Source of the DNA: Aurantibacillus circumpalustris
GTDB taxonomy: Bacteria > Bacteroidota > Bacteroidia > B-17B0 > Aurantibacillaceae
Assembly (NCBI RefSeq): GCF_029625215.1
Contig: NZ_CP121197.1
Span: 1,550,001-1,614,000, forward strand
Length of the DNA: 64,000 nucleotides
Direction of reading: 5' to 3'
Made by a program: the position numbers and the translations under genes. The first letter of the stretch is position 1; each line of letters begins with the position of its first letter. A model generated the notes under the pieces. The model did no database searches, had not been told where the DNA came from, and saw nothing but the letters and a program-made list of their open reading frames with translations. Of this stretch, positions 39,448 through 51,072 are shown piece after piece.

Positions 39448-39732
39448 TTATATTATTTTATCAATAAGTTTTGCCAATTTAAAATCGAGTTCTGTTAATC
39501 CACCGGCATCGTGGGTGTTTAGTTTGATAGAAACGGTATTGTATACGTTTTTCCAATCAGGATGGTGATTGAGTTTTTCTGCATGCAAGGCCACCTGGGT
39601 CATAAAAGTAAATGCAGAAATAAAATCTTTGAATTTAAATTCTTTTTGAATGGCGTTTCCATCCAGTTTCCAATCTTTCAAGTGGTTTAGGTTTTCCTGA
39701 ATTTCTGCGCTGGTATATAAGGATGGTCTCAT
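39448..39732 (-). CDS. phhB: Pterin-4-alpha-carbinolamine dehydratase
   Basis: A 94-residue protein with the family motif [20 protein letters not shown] (catalytic His-His pair) and [18 protein letters not shown]. It dehydrates 4a-hydroxytetrahydrobiopterin formed by aromatic amino acid hydroxylases; bacterial members may also serve in pterin or molybdopterin chemistry. It lies between folB and thiL, one base before thiL, so co-transcription is very likely. No hydroxylase gene is in the window. Confidence 0.9.
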
Positions 39733-39776
39733 GCTGTTTTAGAGTGTAAAGTTAGGATTTTTATACTAACATCTTC

Positions 39777-40130
39777 TTAATCCTTTATTTCAACACTCAC
39801 CTTTTCTACGTTACCATTCATGGGCGGTACAAGCTTGGTAACTCTAACGTGTAAAGTTTTTAAAGTAGGAAAAGCGCCTTTTATTTTTGTGTAAATGCGT
39901 TCACAAACTTGTTCAATAAGTTTACTTCGTATGGCCATTTCGGCTTTGCTAATTTCATACACTGTGCAGTAATCAAGTGTTTCGTTAAGATCATCTGTTT
40001 TCGCAGCTTTTGAAAAATCGGTTGTCAGGTATACGTCAACGATATAGTTCCCACCAATTTTTGCTTCTTCTTCAAGGCAGCCGTGGAAGCCGTATAGTTT
40101 AATGCCTTCGATGTTTATGGAGTGTGTCAT
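39777..40130 (-). CDS. folB: Dihydroneopterin aldolase
   Basis: A 117-residue FolB family protein: IKLYGFHGCLEEEAKIGG at the N-terminus (conserved YGFHG), LDYCTVYEISKAEM and a late VRVTKLVPPMNG segment. It converts dihydroneopterin to 6-hydroxymethyl-dihydropterin in folate synthesis. I use the ATG at 40130, which gives the family length; the frame extends to 40202, but that part has no family features. First gene of the folB-phhB-thiL unit. Confidence 0.92.
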   Translation of the reverse strand: MTHSINIEGIKLYGFHGCLEEEAKIGGNYIVDVYLTTDFSKAAKTDDLNETLDYCTVYEISKAEMAIRSKLIEQVCERIYTKIKGAFPTLKTLHVRVTKLVPPMNGNVEKVSVEIKD

Positions 40131-40146
40131 GTTTTGGTTTAAAAAT

Positions 40147-40314
40147 TTAACCACATAGGAGCATAGATTTTTTAATATAAGCCAAGATAAATAAAGGTAC
40201 ACATAGAAACGCTTCGCCAGGCGAAGCGTTTTGCACTATGCTTTTCCTTATTTTTAAAGACGGGCCGATTCCTTCTATGTGTCTATCCCGAGACAAGCTC
40301 GGGACAAGTTGTGG
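40147..40314. repeat. Structured intergenic repeat, CCACATAG type, with inner hairpins
   Basis: The left arm TTAACCACATAGGAGCATAG (40147-40166) and a right part CTATGTGTCTAT... ending GTTGTGG form an imperfect long inverted repeat. Inside are two perfect hairpins: 40208-40218 with 40220-40230 (AACGCTTCGCC/GGCGAAGCGTT), and CCCGAG at 40287-40292 with CTCGGG at 40298-40303. It fills the folB to TonB-receptor intergenic space. The left arm recurs near 43073 and 48097. Confidence 0.65.
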
Positions 40315-40349
40315 TTTTAGAGTTTGCAATTTATTTTGTTTAATTTCTC

Positions 40350-42869
40350 TTACTTACCAAAATCCAAACCGTCCTGATTTCCTTGCTGTGTATCGGTTCC
40401 TCTTAATTGTTTTGCGCGTTTAAAAATCGAAGCATCCATTTTTCCGAATAAATAAGTAACTGTTAAACGCACATAACGACTTTCTCTTCTTCTTGAAAGA
40501 TCTTGTGTGTAATACGGTGTTTCATAATGCGCGCCCATTACACGACTATTGAATACGTCGCTGAGTGTTGCGTTTACAATCCATTTTGTGCCAAACATTT
40601 TATTAAGTGATATGTCCATTGAATACACAGGTATTGTGGCACCTAACAATAAAATTTTAGGTGATTCATAATTACCGTTTACTTGAAGCGTGATAGCTTT
40701 TGGAAGTTTATAAGAGAGTGTTGCTTTTGTATTAAAAGCAAAACCTTCTGCTTTTACTTCTGGTTCTGTTGCAACTACAAGTCCTTTGATATAAATATAG
40801 AATGCATTGAAATTTACTGTTGCATCAAAGTTTTTAAATACGGTGTATTTAAAGGTGTGTTCCATTCCATAACGAATGCTGTTTTTTCCATTAACTGTTG
40901 TATTTACCAGAACTGTTGGATCTTCTAGGGAAGGATAAGCCACATCTGTAATGGGTTGTTCTTCGTAGCGGAAATAACCAGAACCTAAGTAACTACCTTT
41001 TGTAAATGTTTTGTTGTAATTTAATTCGGCAATGTTTTTAAACTCTGGTTTTAGTTGTGGGTTTCCAATTCTATAATTTTGTTTGTCGGCAAACATTACA
41101 AATGGCATCAATTGGAAAAAATTCGGTCGTTGAATTTTTCTACTGAAATTTACTTGCAACTCTTGATTCTTTTTTAATTTCTTAGAGAAGTAAATACCAG
41201 GAAAAATTGATTTTAGTAAATCTTCGCTGGATGAAGGGTAATTGTATGAGAAAGATTGGTTCTTATCAGTGATGTTTCCTTTGTAGTATGATTGTTCAAA
41301 GCGAAGCCCTGCCTGATAAGAAATATCCCAGAACATTTTGTTGTTATAATTTACGTAAGCAGCGTTTACCATGTCATCTATTACATAGCGATTACTTAGA
41401 ATGGTGTCAGGAAAATAATTTTCTGGAGTAGAAACGGCTCGTGATGTATTGTTTTCGCTAGTTGATTTTTTATAAAAAGCTTTGAGTCCAAATTCCAGTT
41501 TACTTGTTTCGCTATAAGGATTCGTATAATCTAACTGAAAGACATATTGGTCGGCATTACTTTTCCCGACGTTTTTTTGGTAAGTATCCGGAATGGCAAA
41601 TGTATCTGGATTTAGCGTGGAATTGGTAGTAAACAAATAGCCATTGTTCGAATTGGTATGATTGATACTTCCGTCCATAGTCAATTCTTGTCCGATTTTA
41701 GGATAAGTTTTTTTATAAAGAAGCTGTCCATTGTAATGCTGAAACGCAGCATTTTGTTCATTTATTCTTCCGCCGAATAAACGTTCTGTTTTGGTAGCAT
41801 CCTGCACTTGGTATTCTTGCTTATCGTAGGTTTTAAATTGTCCGGCAACGATCATCCCGCTTAAAGTAATGGTGTTGCGGTTGTTGATGCTATAATCAAG
41901 CCCTAGTTTGCCAAAATCAAACATATTCGTTTGACGCACTTTATTATCCTGATTAAAATAACCCGAAGCATTTCCCAAACTATCCAACTGTGTTCTGCGG
42001 GTATAACCTAAGGTGTTATTCATTGCTTGGTTGTGAGAATACATGGAAGTGAAATTCCATTTGCCTTCTTTCACATTTAAGTTTACCATTCCACCATAAC
42101 GATCGCCTGTGCCAATATATGCCATTGCCATGCCATTGTATCCCGGCTTCACATTCTTTTTCATGATAATATTTAGAATACCACCAGTGGCGCTTGCATC
42201 GTACTTTACAGAAGGATTGGTAATAATTTCAACACGATCAATTTGATCAGCGGGTATTTGCTGAAGCGTTAAATTTGTAGGACGGCCATCTACAAATAGA
42301 GTAGGGGCTTGATTCCGAAGCTCGGCGTTTCCATCTGCATCTACAGTAACACCGGGAACATTTTTCATCACGTCAACAGCTGTGCCACCTTTTATCGAAA
42401 TGTCTTTATCGACATTATAAGTTCTCTTATCAATAGACATCACCACGGCATTTTTGTCTGTGGTAATTTCCACTTCCTTTAAAAGTTTTTCGTCTACTTC
42501 AAAAGGAATATTTCCTAAATCCAATTCAATCTTATTTGGCATCTGGATATAAAATTTTGTCTCGTAGGTTTTGTATCCAATTTGGGTGACTCGTAAACGA
42601 AAGCCACCCATAGGGGGCAGCCCTTCAATATTAAATTCACCGTTTTCCTTTGTTAACCCACCGCCAAGAATACTATCTTTATTAAACCATAAAACCACAA
42701 CAGAGCTGTATTCAACCGGATTTTTGGTGTTTGCATCTATGATTTTTCCGTACACACGACCCTTAATGTCTTTCATGGCTTTCATCATGTCTTTGTTGCC
42801 GCCAGCAGGCATCTGAGCGTTTGCAAAAAAGGAAAAAAGGGCCAAGAGAAGAAGTACTAATTTTTTCAT
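40350..42869 (-). CDS. TonB-dependent receptor-like outer-membrane protein (OMP_b-brl_3)
   Basis: An 839-residue protein: signal peptide (1-18, ending FANAQ), a CarboxypepD_reg-like beta domain (about 34-130, VYGKIIDANTKNPVEYSSVV), a plug domain (GTAVDVMKNVPGVTVDADGN, then LFVDGRPTNLTLQQIPADQIDRVEI and YDASATGGILNI), and a C-terminal 14-strand-type barrel ending ESRYVRLTVTYLF with a short tail. The plug fits TonB-dependent uptake or the related OMP_b-brl_3 family, whose ligands are often unknown. Monocistronic on the minus strand, flanked on both sides by intergenic repeat regions. Confidence 0.88.
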   Translation of the reverse strand: MKKLVLLLLALFSFFANAQMPAGGNKDMMKAMKDIKGRVYGKIIDANTKNPVEYSSVVVLWFNKDSILGGGLTKENGEFNIEGLPPMGGFRLRVTQIGYKTYETKFYIQMPNKIELDLGNIPFEVDEKLLKEVEITTDKNAVVMSIDKRTYNVDKDISIKGGTAVDVMKNVPGVTVDADGNAELRNQAPTLFVDGRPTNLTLQQIPADQIDRVEIITNPSVKYDASATGGILNIIMKKNVKPGYNGMAMAYIGTGDRYGGMVNLNVKEGKWNFTSMYSHNQAMNNTLGYTRRTQLDSLGNASGYFNQDNKVRQTNMFDFGKLGLDYSINNRNTITLSGMIVAGQFKTYDKQEYQVQDATKTERLFGGRINEQNAAFQHYNGQLLYKKTYPKIGQELTMDGSINHTNSNNGYLFTTNSTLNPDTFAIPDTYQKNVGKSNADQYVFQLDYTNPYSETSKLEFGLKAFYKKSTSENNTSRAVSTPENYFPDTILSNRYVIDDMVNAAYVNYNNKMFWDISYQAGLRFEQSYYKGNITDKNQSFSYNYPSSSEDLLKSIFPGIYFSKKLKKNQELQVNFSRKIQRPNFFQLMPFVMFADKQNYRIGNPQLKPEFKNIAELNYNKTFTKGSYLGSGYFRYEEQPITDVAYPSLEDPTVLVNTTVNGKNSIRYGMEHTFKYTVFKNFDATVNFNAFYIYIKGLVVATEPEVKAEGFAFNTKATLSYKLPKAITLQVNGNYESPKILLLGATIPVYSMDISLNKMFGTKWIVNATLSDVFNSRVMGAHYETPYYTQDLSRRRESRYVRLTVTYLFGKMDASIFKRAKQLRGTDTQQGNQDGLDFGK

Positions 42870-43072
42870 AATCGTGTTTTAGCTTTTTAGTTAAAAGCAG
42901 GCACAAAATTAAGCTAAAGTAAAGGAATATCAGCGTTTTTTTATCAATGGTAAAAGGGCGTTATAATAGGAAGTGAGGCGGGTTAAATAGTTTGACTTTA
43001 AAGATAAATATAGCAGTTTAACGAGGTGTAAGCTAGAGTCAAATAATAATAAATTAATCGAAACCCAAATTT

Positions 43073-43146
43073 TTAACCACATAGAATCATAGGACCAACT
43101 ATACGCATAAATATAGAGGCGCATAGGTTTGAAGCCTCGCTTCAAA
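43073..43146. repeat. Intergenic repeat arm (CCACATAG type) with inner hairpin, upstream of gmk
   Basis: TTAACCACATAGAATCATAGG at 43073-43093 matches the left arm of the elements at 40147 and 48097. A perfect 8-bp hairpin TTTGAAGC/GCTTCAAA (43128-43135 with 43139-43146) follows, analogous to the inner GCTTCG hairpins there. This lies in the 557-bp gene-free stretch 42870-43426; the rest of that stretch holds the tandem repeat at 43212-43336 and the gmk promoter, and otherwise shows nothing I can name. Confidence 0.55.
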
Positions 43147-43211
43147 ATCTCTGTGTGATTGCATTTCGGTTGATTTGTTATTTTTATGCCCGGAAGGGTT
43201 TTGTTTGTAAT

Positions 43212-43336
43212 AAAAACCTCTGTGCACCTCTGAACCCTCAGTGCCTCTGTGTTGAAATAGCAGAATGCCACTGACATAGAAAAACCTTTGTGCACCTCTG
43301 AACCTCCCGTGCCTCTGTGTTGAAATAGCAGAATGC
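43212..43336. repeat. Two-copy direct repeat of CTCTGTGCC type
   Basis: Copies of 57 bp at 43212-43268 and 43280-43336 (period 68 bp) share AAAAACC(T)YTGTGCACC at their start and a perfect GCCTCTGTGTTGAAATAGC segment near the end, with only a few differences. Each copy contains its own short degenerate repeat of CCTCTGTG/CCTCTGAA. It is not a CRISPR array: only two units and no uniform spacer. It lies about 90 bp upstream of gmk. Confidence 0.75.
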
Positions 43337-43393
43337 GAACTTTTCTGAATATTATTTGTCAATAAAGGGCTAAATTTTGCTTTGATCGATAAG

Positions 43394-43423
43394 TTGTGGA
43401 AATATGGCAGTTTCTTATATTTG
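43394..43423 (+). promoter_or_regulatory. Candidate sigma-ABfr promoter of gmk
   Basis: TTG at 43394-43396, 19 nt, then TATATTTG at 43416-43423 followed by CAG. This is a near-perfect match. Its expected start site is about 43430, which decides against any start codon upstream of 43427 and raises the chance that the second ATG (43442) is used. Confidence 0.65.
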
Positions 43424-43426
43424 CAG

Positions 43427-43999
43427 ATGCACAGTGGAAAAATGATCATCTTTTCGGCCCCGTCCGGATCAGGCAAAACAACTCTTGTTCGCCATATTCT
43501 TAAAACATTTCCTGAGCACATTGCATTTTCTATTTCGGCTACAAGTCGCCCTAAACGAGGGGTTGAGGTAAATGGCAAAGATTATCATTATTTAAGTGTA
43601 GAAGAATTTAAACAAAAAGTCGCCAATAACGAGTTTTTAGAGTGGGAGGAAGTGTATGCAGGAACGCATTATGGCACCTTGCGATCAGCGGTGCAAGATA
43701 TCTGGGCTACAGGCAAAGCAGTTATTTTTGATATTGATGTAGAAGGTGGATTGAATTTGAAAGCCCAGTTTAAAGAAAACGCGTTGGGTGTATTTGTGAT
43801 GCCTCCAAGTATAAAAATTTTAGAAGAACGTTTACATTCAAGAAGTACTGATAACAAAGAAAGTATTGCAAGGAGAATTGCAAAAGCAGAAAAAGAATTA
43901 AAAACTGCTGAGCTTTTTGATGTATTTATTCTCAACGAAGTATTAGAAGAAGCCTGCGTTAAGGCTGAAGAATTAGTAAAAGAATTTTTAGGAATTTAG
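43427..43999 (+). CDS. gmk: Guanylate kinase
   Basis: A 190-residue enzyme (from the ATG at 43427) that phosphorylates GMP to GDP. The P-loop is FSAPSGSGKTTLV near residue 10; the GMP-binding residues lie in SATSRPKRGVEVNGKDYHYLS and VYAGTHYGT; the lid/later signature is DIDVEGGLNLK. The open frame begins at 43382, but those residues overlap the promoter. Starts at 43427 and 43442 are both possible: the first matches the usual M-x-x-GK-start, the second leaves a short leader after the predicted transcription start. Confidence 0.93.
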   Translation: MHSGKMIIFSAPSGSGKTTLVRHILKTFPEHIAFSISATSRPKRGVEVNGKDYHYLSVEEFKQKVANNEFLEWEEVYAGTHYGTLRSAVQDIWATGKAVIFDIDVEGGLNLKAQFKENALGVFVMPPSIKILEERLHSRSTDNKESIARRIAKAEKELKTAELFDVFILNEVLEEACVKAEELVKEFLGI

Positions 44000-44046
44000 C
44001 AATAAGAATTCCGCTAAGTTCATCTTGGGGGGTTCTTAGTTTTTGA

Positions 44047-44109
44047 GCCACTAATTACACGAATTGGCACGAAGGGATCTTGTTAGTGAAAATTAGTGTA
44101 ATTACTGGC
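44047..44109. repeat. Long imperfect hairpin, CACGAATT type
   Basis: A 27-bp arm at 44047-44073 (GCCACTAATTACACGAATT, then ggCACGAA) pairs imperfectly with 44083-44109, whose reverse complement reads GCCAGTAATTACACTAATT then ttCACTAA, with only a few mismatches and a loop of about nine bases. It lies between the convergent ends of gmk and the DUF349 gene. There is no T run, so it is not a simple terminator. Confidence 0.7.
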
Positions 44110-44114
44110 ACGAT

Positions 44115-45857
44115 TTAAGCCTCTGCTTTTTGTTTCTCAGCAGCTGCGCGAATTCTATTTAATTCCTCTGTGATCAATTTACGTTTCGCAGTCAGTTCTG
44201 CAATTTTGGCTTTTTCCCCAGTAATTTTATCTTCAATTTCTTTCATGAAATTATTATTACTGCCTTTTGAACTTTTAAAGAACCCTAAATTGTTATCATA
44301 CGTGCGAACACGGCTGTTGATTTCTTCAGCGAGTTTTTTCAAATGGTCCGATTCTTTTAATAATAAATCAAAGCCATTTTCAGATGAAGCTAAACGATCT
44401 AATTTTGTTTTAAATTGAATCGCAGCTTTTTCATTTTTATCAATGTGCATTTGCTCATACAACTCATCGAGTCTATTGTAGAAAGCATCGTTCACGCGTT
44501 TTTTGTCCTTCATCGGAACCATACCCGCTTCATTCCATTCGTGGCTTATGTTCTTTAATAACTCTCTGTTTGCAGCACCGTCTTCTGTTAAAGTAAGTTC
44601 ATTTAAACGTGTTAAAATCTCTTCTTTCTTCACAAGGTTTTGCTCAAACGCCGCGTCAACATCTTCGTAATGGGCTTTTTTGGCATCAAAAAATGTATTG
44701 CAGGCTTTCCTGAATCGCGCAAATAATTTCGGCTCTTCTTTATCACCATTGCTTGGATATTTCTTCCAGGTGTCTTGCAATCGTATTAAATCAAGTCCGG
44801 TTTTTTGCCAGTCGGTACTGTTCTTTAAAGCTTCTGCTTTCGCAATTAATTCTGATTTAATTTTTCTGTTGGACGCAAACTTTTCATTTAGTCCTGAAAA
44901 GAATACTTTTTTCTTTTCGAAGAAAGTATCGCAAAGGGTTCTGAATTCCGCCCAAATTTTTTCATTGTCTTTTTCAGTTGTTCTTCCTACCGATTTCCAA
45001 TCCGCTTGAAGTGCAATGATTTTTTCAGTTGCTTCATTCCAACGTGTTGCTTTGGCTTCAGTAACAGATTCAATGAGTTCTTTTACTTTTTCAATAATTT
45101 CAAGTTTGGAAGTTAAATTCGCGGCTTTTTGTTCTTCCATCGAATTATAATGTCCTTTTATTTTACGATAGGTTTCATCCAAAACAACTTTATAATCATT
45201 CTTTAATGCCTCCCACTTTGAGTTAGGAACAGGACCTATTTCATCCCATTCGTTCCGGTAAATTTTTATTAAACGTTCAGCTTCCTTAACATTTTCAAGC
45301 GCTTGAACTGTTTTTAATTTTTCAATTAATTCGGTTTTATGCTCAAAATTCTTTTTAAGATCGTGTTCTTGTAAATCACGGAAGATTTTGATGTTGTAAT
45401 AAATGTCTTCAACGGCTCTGCTATAGTCTGATTGTATTTCCTTGTATTTGTGTGAAGATATAGGTCCGGTTTCTTTCCACTGTGTTTGTAGCTCTTGCAG
45501 CTTTCTTACGGCAGAACCAACGTTTTCACTAACCTGACTTAAGTCACGGATTTTCGCAATAATCTCTTGACGAACTAATAAGTTTTTAGATTGCTCAGAT
45601 GCGATTTTAGCATCCGCTTCTTTTTTTAGTTTGTTGTATTTTTCAACTAAACTTTCAAACTTAAGGTCTTCAGAACCTTTGTGGTATTCAAACTCTTTGG
45701 TTTTACCACCTTCATCTACAAAAGATTGTTTGGCCGTTTCAAATTCAGAAGTCCAGAGCTTTTGATACTCTTTTTGCAGAGTGCGCACATCAGCAGCAAC
45801 TTCACCTGCGTCTTTCAACAGCAGTTCTTCCATTTTAGTAATCAGTTCGGTTTTCAT
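44115..45857 (-). CDS. DUF349 repeat protein
   Basis: A 580-residue all-helical protein made of repeated DUF349 units of about 70 residues, recognisable by recurring segments such as LQTQWKETGPISSHKYKEI, YRNEWDEIGPVPNSKWEAL, LQADWKSVGRTTEKDNEKIW, LQDTWKKYPSNGDKEEPKLF and ISHEWNEAGMVPMKDKKRV. The C-terminus is a coiled coil (KIAELTAKRKLITEELNRI). DUF349 proteins are universal in Bacteroidota and of unknown function. It is probably cytoplasmic. Start by the first ATG; the next gene is divergent. Confidence 0.85.
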   Translation of the reverse strand: MKTELITKMEELLLKDAGEVAADVRTLQKEYQKLWTSEFETAKQSFVDEGGKTKEFEYHKGSEDLKFESLVEKYNKLKKEADAKIASEQSKNLLVRQEIIAKIRDLSQVSENVGSAVRKLQELQTQWKETGPISSHKYKEIQSDYSRAVEDIYYNIKIFRDLQEHDLKKNFEHKTELIEKLKTVQALENVKEAERLIKIYRNEWDEIGPVPNSKWEALKNDYKVVLDETYRKIKGHYNSMEEQKAANLTSKLEIIEKVKELIESVTEAKATRWNEATEKIIALQADWKSVGRTTEKDNEKIWAEFRTLCDTFFEKKKVFFSGLNEKFASNRKIKSELIAKAEALKNSTDWQKTGLDLIRLQDTWKKYPSNGDKEEPKLFARFRKACNTFFDAKKAHYEDVDAAFEQNLVKKEEILTRLNELTLTEDGAANRELLKNISHEWNEAGMVPMKDKKRVNDAFYNRLDELYEQMHIDKNEKAAIQFKTKLDRLASSENGFDLLLKESDHLKKLAEEINSRVRTYDNNLGFFKSSKGSNNNFMKEIEDKITGEKAKIAELTAKRKLITEELNRIRAAAEKQKAEA

Positions 45858-45969
45858 TATAGTTCAAATTTTATTCTTCCCAAAAATAATCTAATTCAAA
45901 CGTTCTGCAAATGATTAACTTTATTGTTTTTTTATAAAGATTTTTGTAAATTGTAATTCGATAAAATAA

Positions 45970-48045
45970 ATGATTGAGAAGAAACACCTTGAGCTTCTTC
46001 AGTTTGATAAAGTAAAGAACTTAGTACAACAAAGATGTCACAGCAAACAAGCCAAAACGCTTTGTGAAGAGATCTTCCCGAAAAGTAATTCTAAAGACAT
46101 TCTAACCGAATTAAATCAAACGAACGAACTAAAATTAGTTATTGCTGCCCAAGGGTATTTTCCTTCGGTTGAACACGAAGATATTTCAGTTGAATTAAAT
46201 TACCTTGCTCTGGATGGTGCATTGTTGCATGAATCACAGCTACTAAGCGTTTTAAAAACAGTTGAAGTGTGCAATACTTTAATTCGTTTTTTAAAAGGTA
46301 AAAAAGCAAGTCTTCCATTTTTATTTGAGTTGGTTAAAGATTTAGAAGTGTTTGATTTTGTTGTGGATGAGATAAATAGAATTATTGATTCAGAAGCACA
46401 AGTTAAAAATAATGCATCCTCGGAATTAAGTCGAATCAGAAAACTCGTTGTTGAAAAACGACGTGAAAGCGATAAACGATTTTACAATTACATTAACGAA
46501 TTGCGAAAACATGGCTTTTTACGTGAAAACGAAGAAAGTTTTTTTAATGGTCGCCGAACCTTAGCAGTGCTTGTTGAGCATAAGTCGGATGTACCGGGAT
46601 TTGTGCACAGTAAAAGTGAAAGCGGTAAAACTATTTTTATTGAGCCGACTGTAACCATTGGTGTTAATAACGATGTTGCCGAACTAGAGATAGATGAAAA
46701 CAGAGAAATTAGTCGCATACTGAGGGAGCTTTGTGCAAAGCTGAATCCTTTTTCTCAATCTTTAAAAAACGCTTTTCAGTTTTTAATCTATATGGATTTT
46801 GTGAAAGCAAAGTCAGAATTTGCCGTCGATTTAAAAGCCTGTTTGCCAGAAATTAAAGAAGGGTTTAATTTAAGTGCGCGGGAAGCGTATCATCCACTTT
46901 TGTATATACAGAATAAACGATTAGGAAAACCGACCATTCCAATGTCCTTAGATTTAAATGGTAAGGATAGAATCATCGTTATCAGCGGACCAAATGCCGG
47001 AGGTAAAACAATATCTCTTAAAACCATTGGCTTGTTACAGTTGATGCTGCAAAGCGGATTGTTGATTCCGGTTAAAGAAACGAGCACCTATTGTTTTTTT
47101 GAAAAAATTCTGATCGATATTGGAGATACACAAAGTATCGAAAATGAATTGAGTACTTATAGTGCTAAATTAAAATCAATGACGTCTATCTTAAATGAAA
47201 TTAATGAGGCTTCGTTGGTTTTAATGGATGAGTTTGGAAGCGGCACCGATCCTGAGTTGGGAAGCGCAATTGCAGAGTCGGTTTTAGAAAATTTAGTGAA
47301 CTCAAAAACCAGAGGCGTTATTACCTCGCATTTTGGAGATGTAAAATTATTGGCGGAAAAATTAAATGGCGCTATCAATGCCAGTATGTTATTTAATATT
47401 GAGACACTCGAACCAAAGTACATTTTAAGCATAGGAGAGCCTGGAAGCAGCTATACCTTTGAAGTTGCAGAGCGCATAGGATTTCCAATTCATTTGATAA
47501 ATCGCGCGAAAGAAAAAGTAGATAAAGACAAATTAAAATTAAACCGTTTGCTGGCGGATGTTCAGGATCAAAAAACAAAGTTGGCCGAACAAGCGCAGCG
47601 TTTGGAGCACGAAGAGTTTCTTAAGAAAATAGCCAAAGAAAAATACCACACTTTATTTACTAATTGGGAAGAAAAAATAAACAAAGAACGCGAACGAAAA
47701 ATTGAATTGGTCCGTTTGGCCGATTTCGGACAGAAGTACTTACGTTTGATGGATGATTGGAATAAAAAACAAGATAAAAAAGTCATTATAAAACGCTTTA
47801 TTGATGGCATTACAGCAGAAACAAAAAAGCAGGAAGAATTAAGAAAACAAAACAAGCTGAGTAACTTTGCAGAGAAAAAAATCGCACGCATTAAACCCGT
47901 TTTAAAAGTTGGGAGTAAAGTAAAAGTCTTGAATGGAAATGAAGTGGGAGTGGTTGAAGAGATCAGAGACGAAAAGGTTTTTATCAAATTCGGTTTAATG
48001 AAAATGACGGTGGGAATGGAAAATTTGGTGCTGGCGGAGGAATAG
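45970..48045 (+). CDS. MutS2-like ATPase without Smr domain
   Basis: A 691-residue protein of the MutS2 branch: an N-terminal clamp/lever region (IRKLVVEKRRESDKRFYNYI, LVEHKSDVPGF, FIEPTVTIGVNNDVAELE), the ABC-type ATPase with Walker A GPNAGGKTISLKTIGLLQLM, Walker B VLMDEFGSGTDPELG and EPGSSYTFEVAERIGFP, then a coiled coil (about 520-630) and a KOW-like C-terminal strand region (LKVGSKVKVLNGNEVGVV). Typical MutS2 has about 780 residues and ends in a Smr nuclease domain, absent here. Such short forms exist in Bacteroidota. It lacks MutS mismatch-recognition domain I. Confidence 0.88.
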   Translation: MIEKKHLELLQFDKVKNLVQQRCHSKQAKTLCEEIFPKSNSKDILTELNQTNELKLVIAAQGYFPSVEHEDISVELNYLALDGALLHESQLLSVLKTVEVCNTLIRFLKGKKASLPFLFELVKDLEVFDFVVDEINRIIDSEAQVKNNASSELSRIRKLVVEKRRESDKRFYNYINELRKHGFLRENEESFFNGRRTLAVLVEHKSDVPGFVHSKSESGKTIFIEPTVTIGVNNDVAELEIDENREISRILRELCAKLNPFSQSLKNAFQFLIYMDFVKAKSEFAVDLKACLPEIKEGFNLSAREAYHPLLYIQNKRLGKPTIPMSLDLNGKDRIIVISGPNAGGKTISLKTIGLLQLMLQSGLLIPVKETSTYCFFEKILIDIGDTQSIENELSTYSAKLKSMTSILNEINEASLVLMDEFGSGTDPELGSAIAESVLENLVNSKTRGVITSHFGDVKLLAEKLNGAINASMLFNIETLEPKYILSIGEPGSSYTFEVAERIGFPIHLINRAKEKVDKDKLKLNRLLADVQDQKTKLAEQAQRLEHEEFLKKIAKEKYHTLFTNWEEKINKERERKIELVRLADFGQKYLRLMDDWNKKQDKKVIIKRFIDGITAETKKQEELRKQNKLSNFAEKKIARIKPVLKVGSKVKVLNGNEVGVVEEIRDEKVFIKFGLMKMTVGMENLVLAEE

Positions 48046-48096
48046 GTTCGGCTATCTTTAACCACAGAGCGAATGTGTTTCGTACCCTTCCAATTA

Positions 48097-48200
48097 TTAA
48101 CCACATAGACACATAGTTTACATAGAAAGAAAAAATTCATTCTAATCCTATGTGTCCCTATGCTTATGCGCTTCGTTCATCCTATGTTCCTATGTGGTAA
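48097..48200. repeat. Structured intergenic repeat, CCACATAG type
   Basis: Left arm 48097-48116 (TTAACCACATAGACACATAG) pairs with right arm 48182-48200, whose reverse complement is TTACCACATAGGAACATAG, with one small gap. Further copies of the unit (TACATAG, CTATGTGTCCCTATG) lie inside, along with GCGCTTCG. A separate AACCACAGAG fragment lies at 48059-48068. It is located between the convergent MutS2-like and AddB-like genes. Confidence 0.7.
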
Positions 48201-48213
48201 AAATGAGTTTGCC

Positions 48214-51072
48214 CTAAATCTTAAAATTACAAATCACATTATACGGACAATACTCATGCGTCTTCTCATCATCTGTTTGAATGAAGGGAAGAGTTTGATC
48301 AAAAATAGAAGCAATAAATAATTTTAATTCTGTTTCAAATTCATCAAAAAACTGTGACGTAAAAACAAAGGGTTTTTTATTAGCTCCCAGAACATATTTA
48401 GGTTCTTCTAAAAACACTTTAAAGGGAACAATGCAGGGCATCAACTTTTCAGGGGGCGTACCGTTTTTATATAGTAACCAGGCATAAATAAAAAGTTGAA
48501 ATTGTTTGTTGTAGTTTTTATCCTGAAATAATTTCTCAAATCCATCAAATACAAATTTATCGGTGTCTTTAACCGAACTTTTGTAATCGATAACCCTTAT
48601 TTGCCCGCCAAAACTGTCTACTCTGTCAATTTTTCCTTTAATGTAAATGGTTTCGGTTTTGTCTTTGAGCTTAAGTTCCAAGGCTGCTGAAAGTTCTTTT
48701 TCTAAACTATTCAAAGTAAGAAACTGATTTTCTTCTGATAAGCCCGTAATAAATTTGATATCGTTGTTAATGAGTTTTTTTACATACACTTTAATTACTT
48801 CTTGTTGTAAAATACTTTTTCCAACGGGTTCGGTATTATCGAAAAAGGAAATAAAACTTTCTTGAACGGCAACATCAGCTAGTTTCAGTTTTTCTTGTAA
48901 ATCGTTTGTAGTGATTATTTTTCCGGTAAAATCTTTGTAAAGTGTTTCTAAACTTAAATGCAAAATAGAACCAAAGGTATTTGCCTCAGCACTTTCTTCT
49001 ACCTCTTTTGTTTCTTTTAAATGTGTGCTGTAACGAAAATAAAACTTCAGCTGACATTCTTTGTAGGATATAAGTCCTGATGGAGACAGCCCGCCATACT
49101 GATCACTGCTAGTGGCTTTTGAAAGAATGGATTTTAGAACTTCATCGTTTTTTTGAATGATAATAGTGTTGTCTAATTCTTCCGGAAAAGTTTTGTAAGA
49201 AGCTACTTCTTCAGTTATAGTAATTTCTGAATTGTAGTGTTTCATTTCTAATTGCAACTGAGTGACGAATCTGCTTTTCTCACCTTTACCAAAGGTATCT
49301 GTTTCACTATCGTAAGTAATGGTAATATCTTTGGCCCTTTGTAACAAGCGATAAAAGTGATAGGCGTAAATAGCGTCTTTTTCCAAATACAAAGGCAAAC
49401 CAAAAGCCCGTTTAAGATCGTTAGGAATAAAAGAATTGATTGTTTTTCCAGAAGGTAAGACCCCTTCGTTCACATTCACTAAAATAATGTGATCGAAATC
49501 GAGAGTACGGGTTTCTAAAACCCCCATTATTTGCAACCCTCGCAAAGGTTCACCAATAAAAGGTGCAGAGGAGTTCCCTACAACTTGTGTGTAAAGTTGT
49601 TTAAACGATTGTATGTCGTTAAAATGCGGATACCGTATAAGGATATCATTTAAGCGGTTAAAATTTTTGAGTATAATTTGTAAATATTCAAGTTCTAAAT
49701 TGTTTTGATTACTACTTTGTTGTTCTGAAAAATAAACAATACAGGTTTTTAAAACACCTTGAATGGTTTCGCATAATTCCTGAATTGATTTGGAAGGTTG
49801 TAGAAGTTGTTGAACCTGAACATAACTTTCCTGTAATAATTGTTGTAGATTTTTTTGGGAAATAAAAGAAAGGTTCCGTGCGTTTATCTGTCCAATAATC
49901 AAAGAAAGGTTGAGATCTAGTCCCCGCGCTTTTAAGTAATATAAAAATATCGGTTGTCTAAAAAGATTAATTAAATCGTTGTGATAAATAGTCTTGTAAG
50001 CCTTTTTTTGCTTGTCAAAATTTAGTTGAAGTTGAATGAGAAGTTCAATAAACCCATAAGTAGAGGTATATCTCAAAGGATATTCCATCGTAATGTTTAC
50101 ATGCTCAATGGAACCTGGTAACTGCTGCAAAACGGGCCACAAAAGTTTTTCGTTCGCCAACACAACCGCAACGCGATCTAAAGGAATGTTTTGATCGATA
50201 AAGTGTTGAAGTGTTTGTTTTACAACTTGTGCCTGACCAATTTGTTTTGGGACAGAAATAATTTTAATGTCTTTTTTTTCTCGGAAATTATCTTGTATAA
50301 AAAGTGGATCTCGTTCTTTAAATAAATCAAAATTATTTCTTAAAAATAAACCCGCTTCCTGGTTTGGATTTTTTAAATAGTAATTATCTGCATCCCAAAT
50401 AAGGTCTGCTTTTTTTTGCTCAAAAAGTTTGTAAAATATTTTTAGTTCGGCCGCATTTAATGCATTAAAACCGCAAAAAAGTAATTTGTCAAATTGATCA
50501 ACAAAAGTATTTGTATCTTGATTGATTACGGCATACTTGTATGCTAGTCCTTGATACCCCCAGTTATTCGTAAGTAGAAAAGCTGAAAAATGTTTATAGA
50601 TAGCTCCGAGGCTATTCATAAATTGCAAATAGTTTGTTTGGTACTCGCTTAAATTTTCTTCGCCCAGACTCCAGTTTTCAATGACTTTAATGTCCTTTAA
50701 GTTTTCATAAAGTTGTTCTGAGTCTGCCAAGTAGCGGTCTATTTCATTAAAATCCTGTAAAATTAATTGCCCCCATTTTGCAAAACTGTCAAAAGTTTCA
50801 GCATTGGGGCCATAACAGATTTTATAACTTTCATAAAGATGACAAACTAAATCAATTTCCTCGAGTGTTTTTAGACCGCTGAGTTCGGTAATTAAATCTT
50901 CGGCGCTAATTATTGTAGGTAGCCAAATTGTTTTTCCAAAAGTTTGAGCCAGATGGTTTTTTAAAAAGAGTGCGCCCCGTTTGTTGGGTAATACAATGCA
51001 AAGTTTTTCTACATTATCTTTGTATCTTTCGTGAATAAATTCTGCAACTAATTTTAGAAACTCTTTTGCCAT
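48214..51072 (-). CDS. AddB-like PD-(D/E)XK nuclease with degenerate helicase region
   Basis: A 952-residue protein with a RecB-family nuclease domain at the C-terminus: SPSGLISYKECQLKFYFRY, then GSILHLSLETLY, then GKIDRVD and the catalytic IRVIDYKSS, ending EYCPYNVIC. Three cysteines (C673, C942, C948) match the pattern of the AddB iron-sulfur site (an early Cys and a late CX5C). The N-terminal two thirds resemble an inactive UvrD-like helicase (LPNKRGALFLKNHL, VAVVLANEKLLWPVL, GLQIMGVLETRTLDFDHIILVNVNEGVLP). It is likely part of a recombination/repair nuclease; the expected AddA partner is not adjacent. The start codon overlaps that of the next, divergent gene. Confidence 0.85.
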   Translation of the reverse strand: MAKEFLKLVAEFIHERYKDNVEKLCIVLPNKRGALFLKNHLAQTFGKTIWLPTIISAEDLITELSGLKTLEEIDLVCHLYESYKICYGPNAETFDSFAKWGQLILQDFNEIDRYLADSEQLYENLKDIKVIENWSLGEENLSEYQTNYLQFMNSLGAIYKHFSAFLLTNNWGYQGLAYKYAVINQDTNTFVDQFDKLLFCGFNALNAAELKIFYKLFEQKKADLIWDADNYYLKNPNQEAGLFLRNNFDLFKERDPLFIQDNFREKKDIKIISVPKQIGQAQVVKQTLQHFIDQNIPLDRVAVVLANEKLLWPVLQQLPGSIEHVNITMEYPLRYTSTYGFIELLIQLQLNFDKQKKAYKTIYHNDLINLFRQPIFLYYLKARGLDLNLSLIIGQINARNLSFISQKNLQQLLQESYVQVQQLLQPSKSIQELCETIQGVLKTCIVYFSEQQSSNQNNLELEYLQIILKNFNRLNDILIRYPHFNDIQSFKQLYTQVVGNSSAPFIGEPLRGLQIMGVLETRTLDFDHIILVNVNEGVLPSGKTINSFIPNDLKRAFGLPLYLEKDAIYAYHFYRLLQRAKDITITYDSETDTFGKGEKSRFVTQLQLEMKHYNSEITITEEVASYKTFPEELDNTIIIQKNDEVLKSILSKATSSDQYGGLSPSGLISYKECQLKFYFRYSTHLKETKEVEESAEANTFGSILHLSLETLYKDFTGKIITTNDLQEKLKLADVAVQESFISFFDNTEPVGKSILQQEVIKVYVKKLINNDIKFITGLSEENQFLTLNSLEKELSAALELKLKDKTETIYIKGKIDRVDSFGGQIRVIDYKSSVKDTDKFVFDGFEKLFQDKNYNKQFQLFIYAWLLYKNGTPPEKLMPCIVPFKVFLEEPKYVLGANKKPFVFTSQFFDEFETELKLFIASIFDQTLPFIQTDDEKTHEYCPYNVICNFKI

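Follow-up and report, generated by a model that had tools for sequence, protein, structure and literature searches.

Miniature inverted-repeat transposable elements (MITEs) of DDE insertion sequences are short, non-autonomous inverted-repeat elements located between genes. Repetitive extragenic palindromic (REP) sequences, organized as REPINs or bacterial interspersed mosaic elements (BIMEs), accompany REP-associated tyrosine transposases (RAYTs). The accessible sections of two sources connect repeat and enzyme by three features: inverted repeats flank the gene, repeat and gene co-evolve, and repeat abundance goes with the cognate gene (PMC2817692, PMC3116915). TIRtrons carry a small gene between inverted repeats, some together with scattered repeat families; their protein, a TIRYT, is a tyrosine transposase, and the accessible part of the source describes no spaced short units for their repeats (PMC3733652). 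The present report concerns intergenic repeats at three sites, 40150, 43076 and 48100, in a 64,000-nucleotide stretch of the Aurantibacillus circumpalustris genome (the window; contig NZ_CP121197.1, positions 1,550,001 to 1,614,000). With a probability of about 0.68, they belong, as solo and non-autonomous members, to a small-sized mobile element family whose longer copies encode a GxxExxY protein between the arms, an arrangement like REPIN/RAYT with an unrelated nuclease. A sequence-only reading of the window had proposed a dispersed palindromic element, REP- or MITE-like. This is supported by many further genomic copies and by a pairing kept through sequence changes. Beyond that reading, a GxxExxY gene sits between the arms in longer copies, many arm types exist besides CATAG, and the type follows the protein.

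The elements share with REPINs, BIMEs and RAYTs the gene between two inverted repeats, the co-evolution of repeat and gene, the cognate abundance and the short intergenic palindromic solo copies. Each of the three RAYT features was found in part of the loci, abundance in three arm types. Unlike RAYTs, which are HUH/Y1 tyrosine transposases, the GxxExxY enzyme is a predicted PD-(D/E)XK nuclease; the arms are rows of spaced short units, which tested Y1_Tnp loci do not show. The GTAG foot of REPs was not seen in the displayed arms, which were inspected by eye with no pattern search. The small gene between inverted repeats is also common to TIRtrons, which differ in their enzyme and repeat design. 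Like MITEs, the solo elements are short, non-autonomous, intergenic and bounded by inverted repeats. Unlike MITEs, they have a longer partner with the same ends encoding GxxExxY (no search for these arms at DDE transposase genes was made), and no clear target duplication. Because the RAYT-type features recur here and none of the tested Y1_Tnp loci has these arms on both sides, the window repeats are assigned to the GxxExxY family as solo members, with the nuclease as the likely mover. Sorted by logic alone, the system is of the REPIN/RAYT-like kind; enzyme class and repeat design are not of that family.

GxxExxY genes can lie near such repeats, and this prompted a search of the genome with PF13366. 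Six genes scored above the curated cut-off; three, scanned with TIGR04256, matched at E 1e-39, 2.9e-38 and 3.4e-43. The longer element measures about 450-650 bp and consists of an inverted arm, one GxxExxY gene (PF13366/TIGR04256, about 130 amino acids) and a second inverted arm. Each arm is a row of two to four short units, of seven bases in the CRCNNAG types, with spacers of typically 1, 2 and 3 bases, e.g. CCACTAAG-N-CACTAAG-NN-CACTAAG-NNN-CACTAAG. Among 65 CRCNNAG arms with at least three units, the first spacer has 1 base in 49 and the second 2 bases in 47; where a fourth unit is present (26 arms), the third spacer has 3 bases in 23. CATAG arms as a rule carry three bases between the first two CATAG cores. 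The CATAG-type gene of this genome (362227-362553), which contains an in-frame stop, is flanked by CATAG arms in inverted orientation at 362044 (forward) and 362670 (reverse). Four other GxxExxY loci repeat the arm layout with other units, namely CACTAAG (L035), CACAGAG/CACGGAG (L034) and CACAGAG (L031 and L032); L033 stands apart. Two CATAG solo elements in tandem, their left arms 156 bp apart, adjoin the stop-containing gene (L003, 361623-361913 of the same genome).

Flanking arms were sought by aligning the 450 bp upstream of each gene to the reverse complement of the 450 bp downstream, blind to any motif. A first set combined 80 named loci with 35 loci of the family Aurantibacillaceae (115 in total; 113 tested, two dropped for short flanks). 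Scores of at least 34 were obtained for 57 of the 113 and of at least 40 for 36, against 5 and 0 of 2256 displaced windows of the same shape at the same loci. The family set comprised 150 loci, the 35 included, and thus partly overlaps the set with the displaced-window control; its loci come from among the matches listed for 87 family genomes, weaker matches falling outside that list. One was dropped. The thresholds of 34 and 28 were reached by 74 and 114 of the 149 tested loci, and by 47 and 114 of 1480 pairings of left and right flanks from different loci. The arms are thus locus-specific.

GxxExxY proteins, so far unexplained, occur in archaea and across many bacterial phyla. As named loci, the best 80 of at least 573 matches were taken by closeness to the proteins of this genome, a non-random choice; the closest named matches come from Bacteroidota, and phyla were assigned by hand from record titles. 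Within this selection, 49 of 77 tested loci from many phyla score at least 34 (three of the 80 dropped; one of the 80 in another count), or 45 of 78 with the gene ends of the first flank set. They comprise Bacteroidota (23/39), Pseudomonadota (7/10), Planctomycetota (5/6), Chloroflexota (3/3), Acidobacteriota (2/3), Verrucomicrobiota (1/2), Cloacimonadota (1/2), archaea (1/2) and single loci of other or unnamed groups (6/10). One locus, L060, scored 17 in the first set and at least 34 in the named-loci test, presumably due to differently set gene ends. A tblastn search with one GxxExxY protein returned no phage record and eight plasmid records, all below 60% identity.

A comparison with Y1_Tnp loci bears on a mobilization of the elements, as REP/REPIN sequences, by RAYT tyrosine transposases (Y1_Tnp) of the same genomes. 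Such genes occur in 24 of 41 sampled family genomes, and organization and behavior of the elements resemble REPtrons as far as the accessible parts of the sources describe them (PMC2817692, PMC3733652). Thirty Y1_Tnp loci were fetched from the 41 genomes and 25 tested; none carries unit pairs on both sides, compared with 65 of 148 GxxExxY loci. Inverted repeats of a different kind do flank some Y1_Tnp loci (8/25 score at least 34). RAYT mobilization is not supported by these counts and appears very improbable. At one locus (L180, genome G032), a GxxExxY gene is immediately preceded upstream by a weakly matching Y1_Tnp-like frame, which contains GADLRVCP-like repeats.

Arm type follows the protein. 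For the 101 of 150 family loci with an arm score of at least 30 (the other 49 scored lower or were untested), protein distance and arm similarity correlate with a Mantel r of -0.65, and of -0.59 for non-syntenic pairs only; none of 2000 permutations reached either value. Among non-syntenic pairs, arms scoring at least 34 are shared by 86% of the 7 pairs whose proteins differ by less than 20%, and by 1% of the 1013 pairs that differ by 50-60%. Gene-arm units that resemble each other thus occur at different, non-syntenic places, as if the unit had moved whole.

The number of arms is likewise type-specific. Three arm patterns, searched in the 87 genomes, matched in 44, 40 and 21 of them; the reversed patterns gave 3, 1 and 0 matches altogether. 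Cognate arms were counted in the 62 genomes from which a gene had been fetched, leaving aside the arms of that gene itself; the count treats related genomes as independent and covers the part of each genome's genes that was fetched. Genomes with a CATAG-armed gene hold a median of 13.5 further CATAG arms versus 0 in those without (n=18 and 44; p = 2e-4). The corresponding medians are 5 versus 1 for GAACGCNGAT arms (n=7 and 55; p = 0.022) and 11 versus 0 for CACTNAG arms (n=7 and 55; p = 1e-6). No non-cognate enrichment was significant in these 62 genomes, the six combinations of the three arm types giving p >= 0.15.

Filled and empty sites were found in relatives. The junction occupied by L035 was examined at 30 loci, out of 40 genomes of the genus that each gave some match. 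Gene and arms are present in six (this genome, G003, G040, G010, G011 and G022), with a gap of 544-606 bp between the neighboring genes. Eleven loci are empty, with a gap of 45-105 bp and no element. G041 carries CACAAAG-like arms with no gene, and 12 loci hold other inserts; one of these, in G031, keeps a CACTAAG-type right arm. Solo elements differ in the same way, with insertion polymorphism between related genomes at the same junctions; the sequence-only reading had proposed such a check between strains. At the junction of two genes that we take to be mutS2 and an addB-like gene, 168 bp including the third window element separate the genes in this genome. Thirteen relatives hold both genes at this locus (16 of 29 were left out, their locus lacking one gene): the gap is at most 33 bp in ten, is filled by a palindrome of CAGAT type in G033, and contains other sequence in the remaining two. 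Twelve CATAG sites were compared between G069 and G080. In G080, no element is present at three of them (L332, L338, L325), the element is shared at two (L330, L314), a palindrome of another type takes its place at two (L317, L327), and the other five had larger inserts or were unresolved. Arms with gene, and solo elements, are insertion units.

Palindromes of different arm types were seen at one site in three cases: L350 and L356 of G080 opposite L317 and L327 of G069, and L236 opposite window position 48100. Different types at one intergenic site in relatives indicate that sites are reused or that one element replaces another. Another kind of gene was noticed at the L035 junction of G014, G024, G016, G017, G026 and G031 (L399, L405, L407, L410, L413 and L395, respectively). 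These loci carry genes for four-helix-bundle proteins (TIGR02436 was profile-tested for L399 and L416, the others judged by eye). In five of the six, [TC]GGCAG repeats on one flank face their inverse on the opposite flank; L405 is unclear. They perhaps represent a second, parallel gene-plus-repeat element family.

The near-identical arms reported for the three window sites are borne out. ACCACATAG is exact at 40150, 43076 and 48100 and is followed by CATAG after a gap of 3 bases at every site, not of 3-6 nt as the sequence-only reading had stated. The excess of CCACATAG in the window alone is modest, since 4 occurrences stand against 0.86 expected and 2 of 100 shuffles reach 4. Genome-wide (4.6 Mb), the search proposed on that occasion revealed many more copies: the two-unit arm ACCACATAG-N{1,8}-CATAG occurs 32 times (17 forward, 15 reverse) and the reversed pattern 0 times. 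Many of the 32 pair up as palindromes. A looser pattern, TTAACCACNNAG, gave 81 matches versus 20 for the reversed pattern, the variable place being mostly AA, AG, AT, GA, GG or TA. With this excess and several variable-base pairs, CATAG is one type within a larger family. The features of the window are the following.

40150..40315, plus strand: solo element 1, CATAG type, with the same layout as other solo copies.
40150-40166, plus strand: left arm of element 1, ACCACATAG-GAG-CATAG.
40202, 40207-40231 and 40236, plus strand: core of element 1, with CATAG, the central hairpin AAACGCTTCGCCAGGCGAAGCGTTT and CTATG, respectively.
40275-40286, plus strand: right arm of element 1, CTATGTGTCTAT, interrupted by the CCCGAGACAAGCTCGGG palindrome, with TTGTGGT after it.
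43076..43251, plus strand: solo element 2, mixed or decayed, CATAG type on the left and another arm type on the right.
43076-43092, plus strand: left arm of element 2, ACCACATAG-AAT-CATAG; inner CATAG at 43122.
43128-43146, plus strand: hairpin of element 2, TTTGAAGC-CTC-GCTTCAAA.
43149, 43218 and 43245: CTCTGTG units of another arm type, right side of element 2.
43218..43319, minus strand: two tandem CTCTGTG...CCTCTGTG blocks, CACAGAG-type arms on the minus strand, with units CTCTGTG at 43218 and 43245, and CTTTGTG at 43286 plus CTCTGTG at 43313.
48057..48069, plus strand: start of one isolated arm of CACAGAG type, TTTAACCACAGAG, adjoining element 3 and probably a remnant.
48100..48198, plus strand: solo element 3, CATAG type, outer arms intact, a closed palindrome.
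48100-48116 and 48182-48198: left arm of element 3, ACCACATAG-ACA-CATAG, and right arm, CTATG-TTC-CTATGTGGT.
48121 and 48148/48158: inner units of element 3, CATAG and CTATG, respectively.

An inverted closing partner had been described for the first and the third site. It stands for 48100-48198; in 40150-40315, CTATGTGTCTAT provides the closure, although a palindrome (40287-40303) that may be of another repeat family splits the right end. The copy at 43076 is considered mixed or decayed because the CATAG type appears in its left arm only and CTCTGTG follows rightward at 43149, 43218, 43245 and 43313. Inner hairpins or GCTTC/GAAGC text had been noted at all three sites: hairpins are clear at 40207-40231 and 43128-43146, and the third site has the GCTTC text alone, at 48170. 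The intergenic location was confirmed, no window repeat falling inside a frame taken for a gene; mechanical reading frames do overlap them. Two of these frames on the minus strand, 42930-43295 and 43099-43578, are built largely of repeats, with peptides such as ISTQRHGRFRGAQRFF; they are probably spurious and could give rise to false proteins in databases. The neighboring genes presumably also include folB, a gene for a TonB-dependent receptor and gmk.

Solo CATAG elements run from ACCACATAG to CTATGTGGT. A set of 44 distinct copies from five genomes, selected for complementary ends, includes two of 41 and 44 bp and otherwise lengths of 86-173 bp. A perfect stem of at least 7 bp is found in 30 of 42 testable interiors; mononucleotide shuffles give a mean of 1.84 and a maximum of 4. 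The letters of the stem vary: among 33 stems, GAAGC occurs in 13 and CTTCG in 5, the remainder being single or paired, with 18 different loop-proximal 6-mers. The central stem is thus varied yet paired, so pairing has been retained while letters changed. The stems themselves were tested because the interiors are too variable for a reliable gapped alignment. The median fold-stability z is -2.4 for interiors and -6.4 for whole elements, whose ends were selected for complementarity. In gene-flanking arms (19 loci), the two variable unit bases agree between left and right in 51%, versus 18.5% expected. Neither of the outcomes named as refuting by the sequence-only reading, a lack of further copies or of compensatory changes in the arms, occurred. 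A possible unpaired state of the inter-unit spacers is not supported, since the spacers in these 19 loci are pairable as expected or more.

Twenty-two closed copies with enough flank were classed, from this genome, element 3 included, and from G069. None lies in a long frame; 8 are convergent, 14 tandem and 0 divergent, in raw counts not corrected for intergenic composition, and a stop codon is at most 30 bp away in 12. The site at 43076 is unlike them in lying between divergent genes. This placement, the stable folds and the varied but paired central stems are what structured RNAs or terminators under host selection would show, with the outer arms and the central stem as RNA helices; a structured RNA module had been the other suggestion of the first reading. 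A covariance-model search of 39700-48700 with Rfam returned no match up to E = 1. The elements are present or absent in relatives, other arm types or unrelated inserts occupy the same junctions, and the same arms flank a gene, so an RNA identity of the short copies is improbable. Solo elements may have a secondary terminator role.

The GxxExxY protein (PF13366) is a predicted PD-(D/E)XK nuclease with conserved active-site residues. D72, E82 and K84 are invariant in all 59 diverse stop-free members, E32 and Q96 are present in at least 90%; we take these residues to form the PD-(D/E)XK motif. An AlphaFold model (pLDDT, the predicted local distance difference test, 95.8) was compared by VIA-align, which placed Cas4 SSO0001 first (Z 9.4 over 102 residues, root-mean-square deviation 4.7) and Hjc at Z 6.7; many rows at Z 5-7 may reflect merely a common fold. 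The nearest folds of the model thus appear to be nucleases of the Cas4, lambda exonuclease and Hjc type, from which GxxExxY differs by its length of about 130 amino acids and its encoding inside a repeat-bounded unit. No cysteine is found among the invariant or nearly invariant columns of the 59 sequences, so the Fe-S cysteines of Cas4 have no counterpart there. A PDB sequence search with five GxxExxY proteins of this genome gave nothing up to E = 1, and PADLOC gave weak Cas4, Cas4b and PDC-M36A matches only, for three of the five. Rpn recombination-promoting nucleases (PDDEXK_2) and the fdxN-element excision factor XisH are PD-(D/E)XK proteins tied to DNA movement or excision, and in this they are like GxxExxY. 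To our knowledge, neither is paired with a cognate solo repeat family. PDB 2okf was among the structures in the VIA-align comparison.

GxxExxY genes are under purifying selection. Ten ortholog pairs were compared by the ratio of non-synonymous to synonymous substitution rates (dN/dS). Eight gave values of 0.03-0.21; several of these have a high dS and one includes a stop-containing gene. The ratio is 0.55 in one pair with very few changes and undefined in one. Purifying selection, the frequent synteny of the genes across species and a fold with no obvious joining activity would suit a role other than movement. The arms might then be operators or processing sites of GxxExxY in its own regulation, cruciform cutting, repair or defense, the solo copies having spread by recombination or another enzyme and the gene being a passenger or domesticated partner. 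Similar proteins have similar arms at many non-syntenic places (the Mantel r of -0.59), arms and gene form a discrete insertion at the L035 junction so that the unit itself seems to have moved, and arm number is type-specific. In view of these results, such a role in place of movement is rather unlikely.

Most likely the GxxExxY nuclease moves the elements. From the associations described, we infer that the protein binds and cuts the arms, in which nucleic-acid form it does so, and how the DNA is rejoined. The PD-(D/E)XK nuclease would recognize its cognate arms, probably as a hairpin or cruciform formed during replication, and would cut at the foot of the element. The freed or copied palindrome would join A+T-rich intergenic DNA, often right after a stop codon, with host repair completing the joining. 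Solo elements would retain only arms and structured core and be moved in trans. Each protein lineage has its own unit. As with RAYTs, inheritance of the gene is often in place, and it is the short elements that spread. As the CATAG-type gene of this genome contains an in-frame stop, the window copies may now be stranded.

Several observations weigh against a mobile family driven by this nuclease. No binding, cleavage or movement was seen; sequence association and site polymorphism were. L033 has CACAAAG arms on a single side only. Of the 149 family loci, about half fall short of a score of 34, and 35 of them do not reach 28; their arms are decayed, missing or of a type invisible to the flank test. 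Some high scores of this motif-blind test (L073, L120) are not due to unit-type arms. In-frame stops occur in 14 of the 150 family genes. The position of many GxxExxY genes is shared by several species, which makes movement of the gene a rare event. At least three CATAG arms are found in 16 of the 44 genomes without a fetched CATAG-type gene, perhaps from lost or unfetched genes. A target duplication was sought in the empty/filled pairs and none established, the pairs being too diverged and the edges not base-exact; TTAA stands at both element ends and may be the element's or the target's. Foldseek of the model against the PDB gave no match at E 0.001 or better, the top rows being lambda exonuclease (E 1.6e-3) and Cas4 SSO0001, at E 1.6e-3 and worse. 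For a lone PD-(D/E)XK nuclease, no strand-joining activity is obvious.

In the accessible open-licence literature, no description of the association between GxxExxY and repeats was found; mentions of GxxExxY there are incidental. We lean toward regarding GxxExxY proteins as the mobilizing enzymes of a previously unrecognized class of mobile DNA, in which the nuclease would read a coded, lineage-specific address, a row of short units with spacers of 1, 2 and 3 bases, and the CACAGAG/CACAAAG/CACATAG-like repeats of distant phyla would be solo copies. A widespread protein family, named in NCBIfam by its motif alone, thereby acquires a function that can be tested, and the CACNNAG-type intergenic repeats adjoining GxxExxY genes in distant phyla acquire an explanation. 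If the nuclease is the mover, one small restriction-like enzyme is enough to maintain a family of mobile elements in which no DDE, HUH, serine or tyrosine recombinase takes part, and its DNA recognition code could be read directly from the many protein/arm pairs that exist in nature with different units.

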